Shown piece by piece: positions 12,391 through 23,557 of a stretch of DNA of 64,000 nt. The notes below the pieces were generated by a model, which saw nothing but the letters and a program-made list of their open reading frames with translations, had not been told where the DNA came from and searched no databases. Origin of the DNA: Collinsella phocaeensis (GTDB lineage Bacteria > Actinomycetota > Coriobacteriia > Coriobacteriales > Coriobacteriaceae); NCBI RefSeq assembly GCF_900119895.1, contig NZ_FQLR01000004.1, positions 434,001 through 498,000 of the forward strand. The letters run 5' to 3'. Both the position numbers and the translations under genes were made by a program. How positions within the stretch are numbered: position 1 is the first letter of the stretch; each line of letters opens with the position of its first letter.

Positions 12391-12706
12391 GCGTGATGTC
12401 ATTGGTGTACGCCGGCGAGCCCATGCCGGTGGTCGGCGTCTACCGCCTCACCATGAAGAGCAACTTCGACAACTTCCGCGCGAGCTCCATCCAAGGGATC
12501 ATGAAGCGCGTGAAGGCCAAGAGCATTCCCGTCATGATGCCCCGAGGCCCACACTGGCCGCGTCCGACTTCTTCGGTTCCGAGGTCACGCACGATCTCGA
12601 GGCGCTTAAGGCGCGCTGCGGCGTGATCGTGGTCAACCGCTGGAGCGACGACCTCGTCAACGTCGCAGACAAGGTGTACACGAGGGACCTGTTCAAGCGG
12701 GACTAG
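12391..12706 (+). pseudogene. ugd: Decayed UDP-glucose 6-dehydrogenase gene, C-terminal part, frameshifted
   Basis: Only about the last 105 codons of a UDP-glucose/ManNAc-type dehydrogenase remain. One frame reads [19 protein letters not shown] and [11 protein letters not shown], a highly conserved Ugd block. Near 12545 the match moves to another frame and continues as [19 protein letters not shown], then VVNRWSDDLVNVADKVY and TRDLFKRD before a TAG at 12704. The catalytic Cys region and the N-terminal Rossmann domain are missing. Position after wecB suggests the ancestral locus ended in a complete ugd or wecC gene. A second fragment of the same block lies at 17519. Confidence 0.85.
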
Positions 12707-12937
12707 GTTTTCCCATGTCGCCTGGTTTTCAGCCCTCGACGGCTTCGGCCGCCAGGGGCTCTCTTGATTTAGGGCTTTGGTGAGTAATGCCCCGGTCAGG
12801 TCGCGGTTGGCAAGCAGATCGGGCCCCTCGCTGCCAGAAGGGGCAGCCCTGCTTCACCCTCGCGGGTATCGACGAGCGCGGTCTGCTGAGTCGCGATATC
12901 GAGGCTGTTGGCAAGCGCGGTTGTTGGGTACTGTACA

Positions 12938-12961
12938 TAGTTAGCACCTCCATTCTAACTA
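12938..12961 (-). promoter_or_regulatory. Inverted repeat over a minus-strand ribosome site
   Basis: TAGTTAG (12938-12944) and CTAACTA (12955-12961) flank ten bases that hold GGAGGTG on the minus strand just before an ATG. The layout mimics the autoregulatory operator of the toxin-antitoxin pair at 20421, which supports the idea of an antitoxin remnant here. Confidence 0.3.
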
Positions 12962-13000
12962 GGTGCAGTACTTACGATTGTTATTGATGGCTCCCGCTCA

Positions 13001-13062
13001 ATATCCGGATCCGTATCCGAATTCCGAGGCGTATATCTGAGTTCTGATATAGGTCCGGATAT
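13001..13062. promoter_or_regulatory. Nested palindromes upstream of the P-loop NTPase gene
   Basis: Outer arms ATATCCGGA (13001-13009) and TCCGGATAT (13054-13062) are perfect inverted repeats. Inside lie the overlapping palindromes ATCCGGAT and CGGATCCG and an ATATC/GATAT pair at 13033-13050. A TATAAA (13070-13075) follows. The array sits about 95 bases before the gene start, so a regulator-binding region is likely. Confidence 0.4.
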
Positions 13063-13156: not shown

Positions 13157-16100
13157 ATGATAAAGTCAGCAAACACCGCAGAGAAAAAGATTCAAAACAG
13201 CAGCGCTGGCCGCCTGATGCAGCTGTGTCCACAATACGTTGAAACTCAACATTCAATGCATGTTGAGCTGTTGGAACATGCGGTATATCAAGACGGACTT
13301 TCGAATGTGGCTCTTGCCGGACCTTATGGCAGCGGCAAGAGCAGCATTTTGAGTCGATTTAGGGAGCAGCATCCGGACAAGTGCATTTCCATCGGGCTTT
13401 CGACCCTTGCGCCTAAGAGGGTTGATGAAAGAACACAAGACACGGCTCAGGGGGAAGATGCAGGCGGATTTGGTTGCAAGCGCGATCAGGACGGCCTGAC
13501 AAATGAGCTGGAAAGGGAGATTGTAAGGCAGCTCTTATATCAGGGCGATCCGTCTAAAACGCCGAAGTCTCGATTCAACCGAATACACCCAACGCCGAAA
13601 TCCCGACAAATGATTATGTCTTTACTAGTTTCTTTGGCGGTCGTGATCGCAGCGATCTTGGTGGTCTACTGTGCTGATAACACTACGGACAAGTTATCGG
13701 TGTGGATCTCCCTTGTGAAGAGCCACTATATTTTGGTTATCACGCCTGCCCTATTGGCTCTGTGCCTGTCTGCCATCATATATAGATTCATTGTCCCCAA
13801 GTGGAGCCGCATTACGATCGGTGGGCTATCTGCGATGGGTGCGACGATCAAGCTAGAGGAGGGATCGTTTTCCTATTTCGATCAATACCTCGATGAGATC
13901 CTCTATTTTTTCGAGGCCAATGAATACGATACGGTGATATTTGAAGATCTTGATCGGTTCGACAACCCTTTAATATTCGAACATCTTAGGGAGTTGAATC
14001 TGCTTCTGAATAACGCCGACGGCATAAAGAAGAAGGGGAATGAGAAGAAAATACATTTTATATACGCCTTAAGAGACAGCGTTTTCGAACCCGATTCATT
14101 TGAAGCAACTGGCGAGTACAGCTCTTCTGAGTCGAAAGGGGGAACGGTCCCTGGAAGCGGAAGGGTCAAGTTCTTTGACGAAGTTATTCCTCTCATGCCG
14201 TTCCTTTCGGATTTGAGCGCCTATGACCATATGAAGGCGATTTTCAAAGCGGAACTCAAATTAATAAAGGATGAAGAGGAGAGGGAGAAATTTGACCGCT
14301 GTCTCAGAACCGCCGCTCCCAGCCTTGTCGATATGAGGTTAATCAAAGCCATACGAAACGAATACTTGGTTTTATTCGACCAGATGGGTCCGCATACGCG
14401 CCGAGGGGTAAATCTCGGATTGCGCGAAAGCGCGATTCTGGCCATGACCATATTCAAAAACATTCACCCACGGGAATTTGAAAATGCTCGCGTTGGCGAC
14501 GGATGGCTAAATAAGGTATATGAAGCGTATTTCAGCGCCGTTGAGGCTAAAGTGTCAGCACTAAAAGAAGAGCTGGCATGGTGCAAGAGTTCGGAGCTGG
14601 CAGACAAGACATTAAGCGAGAGGGCGTTGGAACTTGGAGAAAGATTGAACCACGCGCTCTCCAAGCTATACGGTGGACATCCAACTTTGAAAATGCAATC
14701 AAACTCCTATAGCAGCCAGGAGCTGAAGGCTGTTGAGTTCTGGGAAGTATTCATTTCCTTGCCTGATGACGGAGAAATTGCCGTTAGCGAGTACAGGAGA
14801 GGATACCAACTGGACGGGGGCTTTTCGAAGAACCAACTCATCTTCCTTATGAATCTGAAGAGCGAAGACCTTGCTCTTTTCAAAGCTGCTTCTAATCCAG
14901 GGAGCAGAGAGAAAGAGTTGCGGGAAGAAATTGATGCTCTGCTGGGCGCTGATTATCCAGATGTAAAAGGGCTGACTTGGCTTCGAAACAAAGGAGACAG
15001 TCAAGTCGAACGTACCTTTGAAGAGGTGGTACTGAGAGACGCACCTGACCCATTGGCGGCGCAGCTGATTTTGAATGGTTTTATCGGTAAAGATTACCGT
15101 CTCTATACCGCGCTGTTTCCCGATGAGGGACGGGCGTCGGTGATCAATTTCATCACGAACCATGTTAATCACAACAGAACGGCGATTGACTTTCCTCTTG
15201 ATGATGGTGATTGCGCCGAGCTTATCAAGAGGCTTGGAGTCGACCAGTACGAAAACGCATGCACGTTCAATTGTGACCTATTAGGTTATCTGGTTGTTCA
15301 TGAGCAGGATTTTGCCAAGCTGATGGTAAGGTCTGCATGCAAATCAATGGACGGACAAGGAAAGAAGCTCCTCGTGAGGTTCATTGAAGAGAAGGATGAA
15401 GAGTATTGGCTTAACAACACGGTACTTGGCACCATGTCGGCCGAGCTCGACAACATCATACCGTTGATAATCGACGGCGTTGTTCCCAGCGAACTACGCC
15501 TAAAAGCTATGTTCTTTGCTCTGGGATCCCTAAATGAGGAAAAGACCTACTCGGTCGAGGGCTTCTCATGTTGGCTTGGATCGAAATGGGAGACCTTGCT
15601 TCTCGATGAGACGCTGATGGCGCCTGGGGCTTTCCATAAAGCGCTTTTGGTTTTCGAAGATTCAGGTTTCGAAGCGCCGATATTGTCGAATGTCGATGAT
15701 CTATTCGTTCAAGAGATTGTCGAGCGCGGTCTATTCGTTATCACTCGCGACAATCTAATGATCGCGACAAATGCATCCTCGGTGCTTCCGCTTGAACGCT
15801 TGTTCAGTCTGCATCGATCTGTATTCGCTAGGATTGTTCGCAACTCGGGCGCGCTTAACGAGTATCTCTCATGTTTGGAAACGGGGGAATTCGCGTTCTC
15901 GTCGTTTGAGCATGAGCCCTTCGTCATCTGCGTTGGCCTAGCCGGTTCTGACGAATCTTTGCTGGGAATGTTGATAGGGCTTTGTAGCAAAGACATGGTC
16001 ATTGACGACGTGTACGACTTGGCGAACGAGCTATTTGACGAGAGCGTTCTTTCGCAGGGGGTCCGGTTGCTTGACCTTCTTGTTGAACACGGTCACATCG

Positions 16101-17041
16101 CGCCGTCCTCGTACAATATCTCTTGCATAATGAGCGCCGCAAAGGACGCAGGGGGTTCGTCAGAGGTTGAACATGCGGTTGACGCCCTGCTTGCGAATCA
16201 GGCTTTTGAGGTCAAAGGTGAACTTGTCGGTGGGGTTGGAGCTAACGAACTGGCCCGTGCAATAATTCTCTGCAACGAGCTTAATGATGAAGAGGCAGAG
16301 AGTCGCATTGTGGCCCTGTTCGACGGATATTGCGATGGGCTTCCGTTTGCAGTAAACGATATTTCGCTTGATTCGTATTGCCGCAAAGAGCTGCTTGTCA
16401 GTTTGCTGGAATCCGGCGTCGTTGAAGCGTCCGTGGATGTATACAGGAGACTGCGTGATGCTGGATGGGAGTTGAGGGAACGGTGCCTTGTTCAGCTGCT
16501 GCGTGAAGAGGAGCCCATCAGGGCCGCTGATCTCTTCCCTAGTGATGTCGTTTACATTATGAGGAGCAAGAAGCTTCAAAAAACGGCGCTGTGCACCCTT
16601 ATCATTGATGACCCTGAAGGGGCTTTGGATGCGTGTGCGGCCATGGCAAATGATTATGCGGACGCCGCAGTTGCGTTGTCTCGACTGAGTTGCATGCCGC
16701 CAGAAGGCGTGTTGGAATCCGCGCTGGACGAGAGCTCTACTTGGGAGCACTTGGAACCCTGGCTAAGGCTGGAGATTCCCCTGTCATACAAGATTGATGC
16801 TGTGGCGCTTTGCGCTTCGGGCCTTACGAGCACTCAACTAGAGGGGGCGTTGAGAGAGCTTGGGGGACAGTACGCCAAGATATGCGATAGAAAGACCAGG
16901 TCCATAAGACTTCCTCTCACCGATAGCAATTACAAGATTGCAGCTTCTGCAGCTAAGCTGCTAAAAATTGTTTCTTCGAAGTCGGCCAACGAGGATAAGG
17001 GCATTCGAATATACAAGCGCACTTCCATGTTAGACGGTTAA
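13157..17041 (+). CDS. Large membrane-linked P-loop NTPase, KAP/YobI-like; candidate phage-exclusion protein
   Basis: The 1294-residue protein has a Walker A motif GPYGSGKSS at residues 55-63. Two predicted membrane helices follow at about 153-173 (MSLLVSLAVVIAAILVVYCA) and 190-213. Walker B, TVIFEDLDRFDNPLIFEHL, comes at about 259-277. Membrane segments inserted between Walker A and Walker B define the KAP NTPases (Kidins220, PifA), and the sequence around the motifs resembles YobI-type proteins. The remaining 1000 or so residues look helical, with repeated charged Leu-rich stretches and no recognised enzyme domain. PifA excludes phage T7, so a defence role is inferred but not shown. The gene is less GC-rich than its surroundings and sits alone between two ugd fragments, which indicates transfer. 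The ribosome site is weak. Confidence 0.75.
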   Translation: MIKSANTAEKKIQNSSAGRLMQLCPQYVETQHSMHVELLEHAVYQDGLSNVALAGPYGSGKSSILSRFREQHPDKCISIGLSTLAPKRVDERTQDTAQGEDAGGFGCKRDQDGLTNELEREIVRQLLYQGDPSKTPKSRFNRIHPTPKSRQMIMSLLVSLAVVIAAILVVYCADNTTDKLSVWISLVKSHYILVITPALLALCLSAIIYRFIVPKWSRITIGGLSAMGATIKLEEGSFSYFDQYLDEILYFFEANEYDTVIFEDLDRFDNPLIFEHLRELNLLLNNADGIKKKGNEKKIHFIYALRDSVFEPDSFEATGEYSSSESKGGTVPGSGRVKFFDEVIPLMPFLSDLSAYDHMKAIFKAELKLIKDEEEREKFDRCLRTAAPSLVDMRLIKAIRNEYLVLFDQMGPHTRRGVNLGLRESAILAMTIFKNIHPREFENARVGDGWLNKVYEAYFSAVEAKVSALKEELAWCKSSELADKTLSERALELGERLNHALSKLYGGHPTLKMQSNSYSSQELKAVEFWEVFISLPDDGEIAVSEYRRGYQLDGGFSKNQLIFLMNLKSEDLALFKAASNPGSREKELREEIDALLGADYPDVKGLTWLRNKGDSQVERTFEEVVLRDAPDPLAAQLILNGFIGKDYRLYTALFPDEGRASVINFITNHVNHNRTAIDFPLDDGDCAELIKRLGVDQYENACTFNCDLLGYLVVHEQDFAKLMVRSACKSMDGQGKKLLVRFIEEKDEEYWLNNTVLGTMSAELDNIIPLIIDGVVPSELRLKAMFFALGSLNEEKTYSVEGFSCWLGSKWETLLLDETLMAPGAFHKALLVFEDSGFEAPILSNVDDLFVQEIVERGLFVITRDNLMIATNASSVLPLERLFSLHRSVFARIVRNSGALNEYLSCLETGEFAFSSFEHEPFVICVGLAGSDESLLGMLIGLCSKDMVIDDVYDLANELFDESVLSQGVRLLDLLVEHGHIAPSSYNISCIMSAAKDAGGSSEVEHAVDALLANQAFEVKGELVGGVGANELARAIILCNELNDEEAESRIVALFDGYCDGLPFAVNDISLDSYCRKELLVSLLESGVVEASVDVYRRLRDAGWELRERCLVQLLREEEPIRAADLFPSDVVYIMRSKKLQKTALCTLIIDDPEGALDACAAMANDYADAAVALSRLSCMPPEGVLESALDESSTWEHLEPWLRLEIPLSYKIDAVALCASGLTSTQLEGALRELGGQYAKICDRKTRSIRLPLTDSNYKIAASAAKLLKIVSSKSANEDKGIRIYKRTSMLDG

Positions 17042-17362: not shown

Positions 17363-17518
17363 ATGGCCACCAAGAAGGCGATCATGGTGCAGCTGCTCAA
17401 AAAGGGGGGGGGGGTGAGCTGGAACGACGCGGCGCGCTCACTGCGGTGCAGCAAGGCGACGGTCGCGAAGTGCGCCGCGAAGATGCGCGAGGAAGGCATC
17501 GATGCTAGCTACTTACCC
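17363..17518 (+). pseudogene. IS21-type istA transposase, N-terminal fragment
   Basis: About 50 codons starting MATKKAIMVQLLKKGGGVSW continue with NDAARSLRCSKATVAKCAAK, the N-terminal helix-turn-helix of IS21-family IstA proteins. The catalytic domain and the partner istB are absent. An 11-base run of G at 17404-17414 interrupts the start of the helix-turn-helix. After REEGIDA the frame runs directly into a fragment of ugd, so the element is a truncated relic, joined by a deletion or rearrangement. Confidence 0.5.
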
Positions 17519-17620
17519 ATGTCGGTGATCGACGTCTACCACATTAGTGTGAAGAGCAGCTCCGATAGCTTCCGGTTGAGCTCTATCCAGGGAATCATGA
17601 AGTGCATGAAGGCCGAGGGC
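17519..17620 (+). pseudogene. ugd: Second ugd fragment, same C-terminal block
   Basis: The peptide VIDVYHISVKSSSDSFRLSS followed by IQGIMKCMKAEG aligns with the block [30 protein letters not shown] of the fragment at 12391. It is fused in frame to the istA remnant and loses similarity after about residue 35. It is more diverged than the first fragment, so it probably comes from a different ugd allele rather than from recent duplication. Confidence 0.7.
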
Positions 17621-17806
17621 TTTTGCTGCTTGCCGGGTATTTCCCCTTTGATGTTTAACATAGACGCACAATCGGATGGTGTCGGCGTTTCGCGGGGGCG
17701 GCCTGCGTACTTTGCGGCGGATACATAGAACTGAACCCATTCACATCTACTCAACTGATGATTAGAATGATTAGATTTGACTAGGTATGAATAGAAGGAT
17801 GGGAAT

Positions 17807-20282
<2,476 letters not shown>

Positions 20283-20465: not shown

Positions 20466-20735
20466 ATGGCGCTCTGCGTTCCCGTCCGCGATATGAAGGA
20501 CACCGCTAAGTTTCTCTCGGTTGTCGAGGGATCCAAGGATCCCGTGACGGTGACGCGCAATGGGCGTGACGCCCTGATCGTCATGACGCCGGAGGCCTAT
20601 GACGGTCTCAAAAGCGAGCTAGCTCACGAGCGTCTTATGCGTCGATTGGACCGCGCGGAGCTCGAATTCGATTCCGGTGAGTGCTTCGATGGCGGCACGT
20701 TCCTGGATGCGCTGTTGGATCGTTACGATGCTTAA
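20466..20735 (+). CDS. Type II antitoxin, Phd/YefM family
   Basis: The 89-residue protein has the Phd/YefM N-terminal DNA-binding fold: VPVRDMKDTAKFLSVVEGS, then DPVTVTRNGRDALIVMTPEA. A charged C-terminal tail follows, expected to wrap the toxin. Antitoxins of this kind bind the operator of their own promoter, here the inverted repeat directly upstream. GAGGAGG is placed 6 bases before the ATG. The stop overlaps the toxin start by 8 bp, so the two are translationally coupled. YefM-YoeB and Phd-ParE/RelE are the usual pairings. Confidence 0.85.
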   Translation: MALCVPVRDMKDTAKFLSVVEGSKDPVTVTRNGRDALIVMTPEAYDGLKSELAHERLMRRLDRAELEFDSGECFDGGTFLDALLDRYDA

Positions 20736-21036
20736 GCTTGTCGTCTCGAAGGGCGCTGCGATGGAGTTACGCGGCATCGCCCAGTACCTTGAAGACGAGC
20801 CCGCCTCTCCGGGCGCGGCGCGTTCTTTTATCCAGGAATTCAAACATCAGGCCGAGCTCGCTTGCTCGTTTCCTCGCTCGCATCCGCTATGCGTTCATTC
20901 CGAGCTCGCGCAGAGGGGCTACCGTTCGTTTCGGGTGGGCAGGTATGTCGCAATCTATTCCGTCGCAGATGAATTCCTCAAGGTCCTCCATGTATTCCAC
21001 CGGTCGCAGGATTATGTCCGCGATGTTTTGGAGTAA
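20728..21036 (+). CDS. Type II toxin, RelE/ParE family
   Basis: A 102-residue protein starting MLKLVVSKGAAMELRGIAQY. It has the pattern of ParE/RelE toxins: an N-terminal beta strand, two helices (LEDEPASPGAARSFIQEFKH), then PLCVHSELAQRGYRSFRVGR, YVAIYSV and FLKVLHVFHRSQDYVRDVL. The Arg-rich strand and the late HRSQDY segment fit ParE-like members. The ATG at 20728 is preferred over an upstream in-frame ATG at 20677 because the product then has the family length and overlaps the antitoxin as usual. ParE would target gyrase and RelE mRNA; sequence alone does not decide. Confidence 0.82.
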   Translation: MLKLVVSKGAAMELRGIAQYLEDEPASPGAARSFIQEFKHQAELACSFPRSHPLCVHSELAQRGYRSFRVGRYVAIYSVADEFLKVLHVFHRSQDYVRDVLE

Positions 21037-21289: not shown

Positions 21290-21685
21290 TTACAGGATGT
21301 CCGCATAGCGCTCGGCTATGTTGTTGTTCATGCGCTCGAACTCGGGGATGTATTGGTCAATGATGGTTGCGACCAGCCGCTCGGCAAGCTCGGCGTCGTA
21401 GATGTGGGCCGTGTCGTTTCGATCGCGCAGCATGTGCAACCAGATCTCCTCGTCCATCCAATCATAGTAGGCGTATGCTGCCTTGATAATCTCTCGAGGA
21501 GAGCCGGTCGCAGCGACGCGGTCGCCTTCGTATTTCATGAGCTCTTTTAAGAGCTTCCATCCGAGTTCGAATTGCAGGGAAAACTTGGCGATGATGCCTC
21601 CTCGCACGAACTCGTTCTCCAAATCCTGGTCCTTTGATCGTCTGAGGGTCTCGAGTGCGGAGGAGTAGCTATCGAACTTCTTCAT
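21290..21685 (-). CDS. hepT: HepT-like HEPN-domain toxin / nucleotidyltransferase substrate-binding protein
   Basis: The 131-residue helical protein resembles the HI0074/HepT family. It contains LQFELGWKLLKELMKYEG and the HEPN active-site pattern R-x4-H-x-Y in LRDRNDTAHIYD near residue 90. In studied HepT toxins this motif cuts RNA and its Tyr is adenylylated by the partner. It overlaps the upstream nucleotidyltransferase gene by 17 bases, so the two are made together. In HI0074-type members without RNase activity the protein is only a substrate-binding subunit; here the intact motif favours a toxin. Confidence 0.8.
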   Translation of the reverse strand: MKKFDSYSSALETLRRSKDQDLENEFVRGGIIAKFSLQFELGWKLLKELMKYEGDRVAATGSPREIIKAAYAYYDWMDEEIWLHMLRDRNDTAHIYDAELAERLVATIIDQYIPEFERMNNNIAERYADIL

Positions 21686-21959
21686 ACAGCACCTTCCCGT
21701 CCTTCAGCACCTCTTCGAGCAGCTCGTGCGATGAGCTCTCGTCCATGTTGACGACATCTAGCTGGAGCAGTGACCACAATTCGTTGTCGAGGCGATCTTC
21801 GAGGTGCGGAAAGTCCGGACAGCCCCATACGGCAAGGTCGATATCGCTCTTCTCTTCCGCGGTCCCGCGGGCGCGGGAACCGAAGAGCATGACGCGCACT
21901 GCGCGCTCTTCCGCACATATCTCGCGTATCTGATTGTAGACGTGCTCCATGTTTCGCAT
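21669..21959 (-). CDS. mntA: MntA-like minimal nucleotidyltransferase, antitoxin partner
   Basis: The 96-residue protein carries the nucleotidyltransferase motif G-S-x10-D-x-D exactly, as MLFGSRARGTAEEKSDIDLAV at residues 24-44. A third acidic residue appears in LLQLDVVNMDE. MntA proteins adenylylate HepT and so block it. It is the first gene of the minus-strand pair. In the Shewanella pair hepT comes first, so the order is reversed here. The start at 21959 is followed by MRNMEHVYNQ; a start two codons later is also possible. Confidence 0.82.
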   Translation of the reverse strand: MRNMEHVYNQIREICAEERAVRVMLFGSRARGTAEEKSDIDLAVWGCPDFPHLEDRLDNELWSLLQLDVVNMDESSSHELLEEVLKDGKVLYEEVR

Positions 21960-22330: not shown

Positions 22331-23557
22331 ATGGGCGCAGCGAAGAAGCACGGGCCGGCGGCCTACCTGGGGATCGACGTCGGCAAGAGCAGGCACAGCG
22401 CCTGCGCGCTCGACGCCGCCGGCGGGGTCGTCTTCAGGGCCGACCTCGACAACAGGCCGGACGCGATAGACCGGCCGCCGGAGCGCGCCGGGGACGCCGC
22501 GCTGGTCGTCGTCGACCAGAAGCGCAACATCGGCGCGCTCGTCCTGGCCAGGGCGCACGCGCTGGGGCGCAGGTGCGCCTACCTGCCCGGCTACGCCGAG
22601 AAGCGGGCGCGCGACATGATGCCCGGCATCGCCAAGACCGACGCGATCGACGCCGAGGTCATCGCCCGCACCGCCATGGGCATGCCGCAGGCGCTCAGGC
22701 CGATCGCCGCGGAGGACGCCGCCGCCAGGTCGCTGAGGGCGCTGTCGTCGCAGCGCGAGTACGCCGTCGCGTCCAGGACCAGGGCGAAGAACAGGTTCCG
22801 CGCCGTCCTGCTCGAGGCCGGCCCGGAGCTGGAGCGCGCCGTGGACCCGTCGTCGCCGTGGCAGATGGCGGTGCTCTCCGAGCTCGGCGGCGCGCCCGGC
22901 TGCTCGGCCGCCGGATGGGGCGCGTTCGCCGACGCCGCGCGGCGCGCGGGCGCGCCGGCCGCGAGGGCCAGGGAGTTCTGGGAGGCGCTCGACGCGTCGG
23001 CGGGGTCCGGGAGGGGCGCCGGCGCGGGAGAGGACGTCTCGGTGCGCATGCTGGCGCGCGAGATATCCGCGCTGGACTCCGACGTCGCCGAGCTCGACGG
23101 GCTCATAGGAGAGGCGCTGGCCGGCGACGAGGTCTACGAGAGCCTGCTCACGATACCCGGCATAGGGCCGAAGACCGCCGCGGCGCTGGTCACCGCGGTC
23201 GACATCTCGCTGTTCGGGAGCCACCACGAGCTCGCGAGCTACTGCGGGGTGGCGCCCGCCGACAGCAGGTCCGGCACCAGCGTGAGGTCGACCTCCCCGC
23301 AGCGCGGCGGCAACAAGCAGCTCAAGAACCTCCTGATATTCAGCTGCAACTCCCTCGTCGGCACGGACAACAGGTTCGGAAGGTACTACGACGAGTGCAG
23401 GGCGAGGGGGATGAGGCACAACAAGGCGCTGAAGGCCGTCGCGAGGAAGAGGATGAAGGTCGTCTACGCGGTCATGTGGGACGCGGTCCCGTACGAGCCC
23501 CGTCGGTAGCGCTCAGGGACAACCTAGTCGGAGGAGAGGGCGCCTGCGCGCGTCCCG
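22060..23557 (+). mobile_element. IS110-family insertion sequence, ends approximate
   Basis: The transposase gene at 22331 and a structured non-coding region before it mark an IS110-type element. These elements lack terminal inverted repeats, so the ends given are only outer guesses. The left end lies somewhere after the MntA-like gene start. The right end lies in the 48 bases before the DUF2442 gene. Confidence 0.5.
22331..23509 (+). CDS. IS110-family transposase (DEDD recombinase)
   Basis: The 392-residue protein has the RuvC-like N-terminal domain starting AAYLGIDVGKSRHSACALD, with its first catalytic Asp. The KTDAIDAEVIARTAMGMPQA segment near residue 98 supplies later DEDD acids. A helical linker follows. 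The C-terminal Tnp_20 domain includes LTIPGIGPKTAAALVTAVD and the YCGVAPADSRSGTS block, which holds the conserved Ser. It directs bridge-RNA-guided recombination in studied members. The gene is complete and in frame, so the element may be active. GGGAGAGGA lies before the ATG at 22331. Confidence 0.93.
   Translation: MGAAKKHGPAAYLGIDVGKSRHSACALDAAGGVVFRADLDNRPDAIDRPPERAGDAALVVVDQKRNIGALVLARAHALGRRCAYLPGYAEKRARDMMPGIAKTDAIDAEVIARTAMGMPQALRPIAAEDAAARSLRALSSQREYAVASRTRAKNRFRAVLLEAGPELERAVDPSSPWQMAVLSELGGAPGCSAAGWGAFADAARRAGAPAARAREFWEALDASAGSGRGAGAGEDVSVRMLAREISALDSDVAELDGLIGEALAGDEVYESLLTIPGIGPKTAAALVTAVDISLFGSHHELASYCGVAPADSRSGTSVRSTSPQRGGNKQLKNLLIFSCNSLVGTDNRFGRYYDECRARGMRHNKALKAVARKRMKVVYAVMWDAVPYEPRR

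Follow-up and report, generated by a model that had tools for sequence, protein, structure and literature searches.

Tmn (PADLOC PDLC02220) is a single-gene anti-phage transmembrane NTPase, reportedly described by Gao et al. in 2020. Experiments in E. coli found one gene sufficient to block phages (Yamashita et al. 2025, PMC11846954). The same work describes a phage protein that counters Tmn and reports that escape mutations map to the phage DNA-modification gene nmad5, although deletion of nmad5 gave no escape (PMC11846954). Two further proteins bear comparison. PifA of plasmid F, a protein of 741 aa, is reported to act through membrane depolarisation (PMC8594841). YobI of Bacillus subtilis, namesake of the Pfam family PF20693, belongs by Pfam to the same NTPase family as the protein studied here, a comparison made through the family model only. 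We compared with these systems a large gene in a 64,000-nucleotide stretch of Collinsella phocaeensis DNA, hereafter the window.

Anatomy of the protein

The gene is intact, and its parts are as follows (window coordinates and strand, with residues of the protein).

13157-17041, + strand: tmn-like gene, an ORF of 1294 aa with an ATG start and without internal stop
13262-14509, + strand: YobI-ATPase / AAA+-STAND-like NTPase domain, residues 36-451 (Pfam match, fold comparison)
13319-13345, + strand: Walker A, GPYGSGKSS, residues 55-63 (G60 and K61 invariant in 77/77 aligned sequences)
13598-13804, + strand: two transmembrane helices inserted in the NTPase, residues 148-173 and 179-216 (hydropathy, model helices)
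13931-13960, + strand: Walker B region, TVIFEDLDRF, residues 259-268 (E263, D264, D266 and R267 invariant, 77/77)
14162-14179, + strand: RxKFFD motif, residues 336-341 (K338, F339 and F340 invariant in 77/77)
14504-14671, + strand: long helix, a coiled-coil-like linker, residues 450-505 (structure model)
14672-16780, + strand: alpha-solenoid, residues 506-1208 (model; ARM-like; hhalign to the Tmn C-terminal half)
16781-17017, + strand: C-terminal helices and beta hairpin, residues 1209-1287 (model secondary structure)

R394 is also invariant among the 77 relatives. Against YobI-ATPase (PF20693) the protein scored E 5e-94 and 316 bits, compared with a curated cut-off of 27, and covered model positions 2-362 of 363, whereas KAP_NTPase (PF07693) gave no match at E 0.1; the original prediction of a YobI/KAP-type NTPase thus holds for YobI and not for KAP. 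Its placement of the protein in the family of PifA fails for the same reason, PifA itself matching PF07693 (E 3e-43). We also rejected PifA as the closest relative, a profile comparison with it having aligned 30 columns only, around Walker A. Both are P-loop NTPases with a known or likely anti-phage role, and both are loosely termed KAP, but PifA is only a remote cousin.

Kyte-Doolittle hydropathy gave exactly two strong hydrophobic segments between the Walker motifs, starting at about 149-159 and 184-198, in agreement with the model and with the two membrane helices that had been predicted there. Structure was modelled in two separate pieces, residues 1-1200 and 471-1294. The C-terminal part is predicted to be nearly all helical (mean pLDDT 84), as anticipated, but it comprises about 840 residues rather than about 1000, and the idea that it resembles no known domain gave way to its homology with Tmn, set out below. 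In the model the solenoid contains a small beta part close to its start, and the C-terminal end (1209-1287) looks winged-helix-like in its secondary structure. A fold search with the solenoid returned armadillo-like structures with a best Z of 7.3; since Z scores of about 7 are at the level of unrelated helical repeats, we assigned the solenoid to no family on this basis. The protein had no match in a sequence search of the PDB, and nothing meaningful was returned from PHROGs or NCBIfam.

Relation to Tmn

The PADLOC Tmn model matched the window protein at E 6.6e-49, aligning residues 9-547 with model positions 15-529 of 1273, and did not extend end to end as it does with the E. coli Tmn proteins. 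Homologs on E. coli plasmids, found by tblastn, scored 2057 and 2232 bits over the full length of this model, and one carries the annotation 'anti-phage transmembrane ATPase'. The remaining half was compared by hhalign between two profiles, one built from the C-terminal halves of 67 relatives (the window protein included, none of the Tmn clade) and the other from six Tmn-clade sequences. The profiles aligned collinearly over 695 columns (E 8e-25), compared with E 0.26-0.8 for controls in which the columns of the Tmn profile were reversed or shuffled, and each third matched the corresponding Tmn third in order (E 1e-13, 1e-5 and 7e-8). We conclude that the homology between the window protein and Tmn is full length, its C-terminal half being homologous to that of Tmn.

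A tree of 97 proteins, given a midpoint root only for display, places the window protein on a long branch of 1.5 changes per column within a large sister clade to that of the E. coli Tmn proteins. This clade holds 80 sequences, mainly actinobacterial with some from proteobacteria, and the split received 100% support (SH-aLRT). The protein falls outside the clade of the tested E. coli Tmn proteins, and we therefore call it 'Tmn-like' rather than Tmn in the narrow sense. Identity to its nearest relatives is only about 26%. Two relatives from Bifidobacterium (L087:2851-7128 and L095:8956-12696) also have long branches, and one of them, at 1425 aa, exceeds the rest.

The likeness to Tmn thus comprises a YobI-ATPase domain whose two transmembrane helices lie between the Walker motifs, a similar size (1273 aa in Tmn, 1294 aa here), a homologous C-terminal half, and a solitary gene with a patchy, mobile distribution. 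The differences are an identity of about 26% over the N-terminal 700 residues, membership of a separate, mainly actinobacterial clade and the partial reach of the standard model. We conclude that the window gene encodes a remote relative of Tmn along its entire length and most probably serves in phage defence, as a gene of an already known kind. The original prediction had regarded a single-gene system with a huge C-terminal domain as new; since Tmn, about 1273 aa from one gene, is already of this design, no new kind of system is at hand.

Distribution and genomic setting

YobI-ATPase was found in none of 44 congeners; across the order, 10 genomes out of 397 carried one, the window genome included; where the other members of the order could be placed in the tree, they lay outside the window protein's own clade. 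Such patchy occurrence is typical of a gene that spreads horizontally. The single sequence found nothing when genome and viral contigs were scanned with it, an alignment being needed; among 300 pattern matches in genome contigs, 282 encode relatives, and those read to full length had about 1200-1300 aa. Loci were fetched for the best 80 of the 282. No same-strand gene lies within 100 nt at 61 of 78 loci, which makes a solitary gene the norm.

The neighbours of homologs were tabulated for known defence genes, as had been proposed, and such genes were present. With neighbour genes called by a crude ORF caller, the test compared the seven nearest ORFs at each of 20 loci with the ORFs of control regions, each of 20 kb and taken from another part of the same contig. 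R subunits of type I restriction enzymes turned up at five of these loci (L029, L030, L033, L034 and L060) and at none of the 20 controls (one-sided Fisher p 0.024). At the loci 103 PADLOC families were matched, against 7 in the controls. Another 150 ORFs, drawn from the surroundings of different loci, hit 190 families, among them GajA, AriA and additional type I restriction proteins. Since several related models can hit a single protein, these totals exceed the number of separate genes. Relatives adjoin restriction-modification, Gabija and other defence genes, whereas the matched control regions do not.

At four loci (L030:2488-12609, L031:2456-12705, L033:2348-12618 and L084:5726-12645) the tmn-like gene is the last of an hsdM-hsdS-hsdR operon, and at four others (L039, L060, L062 and L090) a YgjP-like metallopeptidase gene stands between hsdM-hsdS-hsdR and the terminal tmn-like gene. 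Labels were assigned by Pfam for L030 and L060 only and by blastp to these for the others. Several loci have 4-nt overlaps, and a gene for an AAA/SMC-type protein lies downstream at L030. Timonella and Micrococcus are among the sources of such restriction-linked relatives. A precedent for this layout is PrrC, described as a nuclease silenced by a linked type I enzyme and freed by a phage anti-restriction factor (PMC2610378). By analogy, the actinobacterial Tmn-like clade could be functionally distinct and partly guard type I restriction enzymes, firing as PrrC does once restriction has been knocked out by a phage, with the window copy as a partner-free branch that senses something else; we consider this a long shot.

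The window gene itself belongs to a stretch of polysaccharide genes. On one side is a UDP-GlcNAc 2-epimerase (wecB-like) gene and on the other an AlbA_2/HATPase_c_4 gene, after which comes an rmlB-like gene. Three features flank it.

12420-12706, + strand: 3' remnant of ugd (UDP-glucose dehydrogenase) with a frame change (repeat; weak Pfam match; second part from translation)
12928-12971, no strand assigned: hairpin or operator-like inverted repeat, 0.19 kb upstream of the gene (z -3.95, 0/200 shuffles)
17516-17623, + strand: second ugd 3' remnant (similarity to the left remnant)

The ugd fragments expected on both sides are thus present: 12420-12527 and 17516-17623 share 78% identity across 108 bp (E 3e-21), and the left remnant gives a weak Pfam match to the C-terminal domain of Ugd (E 0.0045). 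Nested palindromes had also been proposed upstream; the repeat listed above is beyond chance, but the larger one at 13001-13062 is within it (z -1.16, 27/200 shuffles). No sigma-70 promoter was found upstream of the gene by consensus. Both intergenic flanks were searched in the genome and had no other copies except a 40-bp partial match, in which a piece of the left flank (12850-12889) recurs at 88% (G000:C1:683290-683329); there are therefore no recognisable insertion-sequence ends. The gene is richer in AT than its surroundings, as predicted, when its GC content of 49.3% is set against both intergenic flanks (55.9%) or the region at 24-64 kb (69%), but polysaccharide genes at 4-11 kb are just as low (48.6%). 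We therefore rejected low GC as a mark of the window gene alone.

No classical defence gene stands immediately beside the gene. Between it and its downstream neighbour, a short HTH_28/HTH_23 stretch (17363-17510) continues into the second ugd remnant and resembles the beginning of a disrupted transposase or regulator. The neighbour itself (17807-19099, same strand) encodes a Schlafen AlbA_2 / HATPase_c_4 / winged-helix protein, is preceded by a consensus sigma-70-like promoter (17740-17768) and has relatives scattered over 16 of the 44 congeners, the closest at 65% identity. Further downstream, a Phd/YefM-ParE toxin-antitoxin pair (20466-21036, + strand) adjoins a second pair made up of an MNT nucleotidyltransferase and an NTase_sub_bind (HEPN-like) partner (21290-21959, - strand); an IS110-type transposase gene (22331-23509) lies next to them.

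A conserved chromosomal location was considered and rejected: the surroundings of rmlB were compared with the window at six loci from five congeners and at a further copy within the genome itself, and around the gene only rmlB was common, with the sugar-transferase gene in one. Neither this nor a match to a housekeeping family, the two outcomes named beforehand as counting against a defence role, appeared.

Mode of action and alternative readings

Full-length homology to Tmn, the defence-gene context of relatives and patchy distribution together support the defence reading well, and the view of this solitary gene as a good anti-phage candidate stands. We consider a defence function highly probable. 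The account we favour, and think probable as a whole, is that the window protein is a divergent anti-phage protein of the Tmn kind, a single-polypeptide, membrane-anchored YobI-family NTPase acting as follows. The two helices would hold the NTPase at the inner face of the membrane, and the cytoplasmic alpha-solenoid, the likely sensor, would bind a phage-made molecule. Binding would release the NTPase, which may then bind ATP and oligomerise like its AAA+/STAND relatives. The oligomer could cluster the membrane hairpins and so perturb the membrane or otherwise stop phage growth, probably at the cell's cost. The membrane-effector part is the more tentative one, at somewhat less than an even chance, and depolarisation by PifA lends it weak support because PifA is no close relative.

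The fold of the NTPase core bears on this mechanism and on its strongest competitor. The closest structural match was Orc5, an Orc/Cdc6-type AAA+ protein (Z 14.7 over 242 residues); other matches include BrxC (Z 12.1), RdrA (Z 11.4), CED-4 (Z 11.2) and Avs4 (Z 10.6). With the latter four, STAND/AAA+ immune ATPases, the window protein shares the NTPase fold at fold level only, and it has the ATPase-plus-solenoid layout of STAND proteins; to our knowledge none of the four has a membrane hairpin inside the NTPase. The modelled core has a STAND/AAA+ fold in the sense of a generic AAA+ likeness, not of family membership. A Tmn-like NTPase might instead act without membrane damage, its solenoid binding phage DNA or a replication or modification complex at the membrane and its ATPase blocking this target directly, in the way of an Orc/Cdc6-like machine. 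The Orc5 match, the winged-helix-like look of the C-terminal end, the Tmn escape mutations in nmad5 and a plasmid relative annotated 'DNA-binding protein' are consistent with such a block, but likeness to Orc/Cdc6 is common to STAND ATPases generally, loss of nmad5 brought no escape, and the membrane hairpin is retained without obvious need. We regard this reading as rather unlikely.

That the protein is a selfish-element or plasmid maintenance or exclusion gene, aimed more at plasmids or competing elements than at phages, appears improbable. Homologs are indeed common on conjugative plasmids (477 of 629 plasmid records), and some occur in IMG/VR contigs; against this, the experiments on Tmn concern phages, and 50,697 phage records gave no match. 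A housekeeping or surface-polysaccharide role tied to the locus, suggested by the position between wecB-like and rmlB-like genes and the matching GC, is very improbable, given that all 44 congeners lack the gene although 32 carry the flanking rmlB-type gene, that relatives adjoin restriction-modification and other defence genes, and that remnants of ugd from a variable locus lie on both sides.

Through the window protein, a divergent protein of the Tmn kind, the range of a tested phage-defence protein grows to include a large clade of mainly actinobacterial sequences that current detection models cover only partly. The large C-terminal region is a predicted alpha-solenoid common to the whole Tmn kind, and the placement of tmn-like genes in restriction operons, seen in some members of the sister clade, offers a testable idea of what tmn-like proteins may sense.
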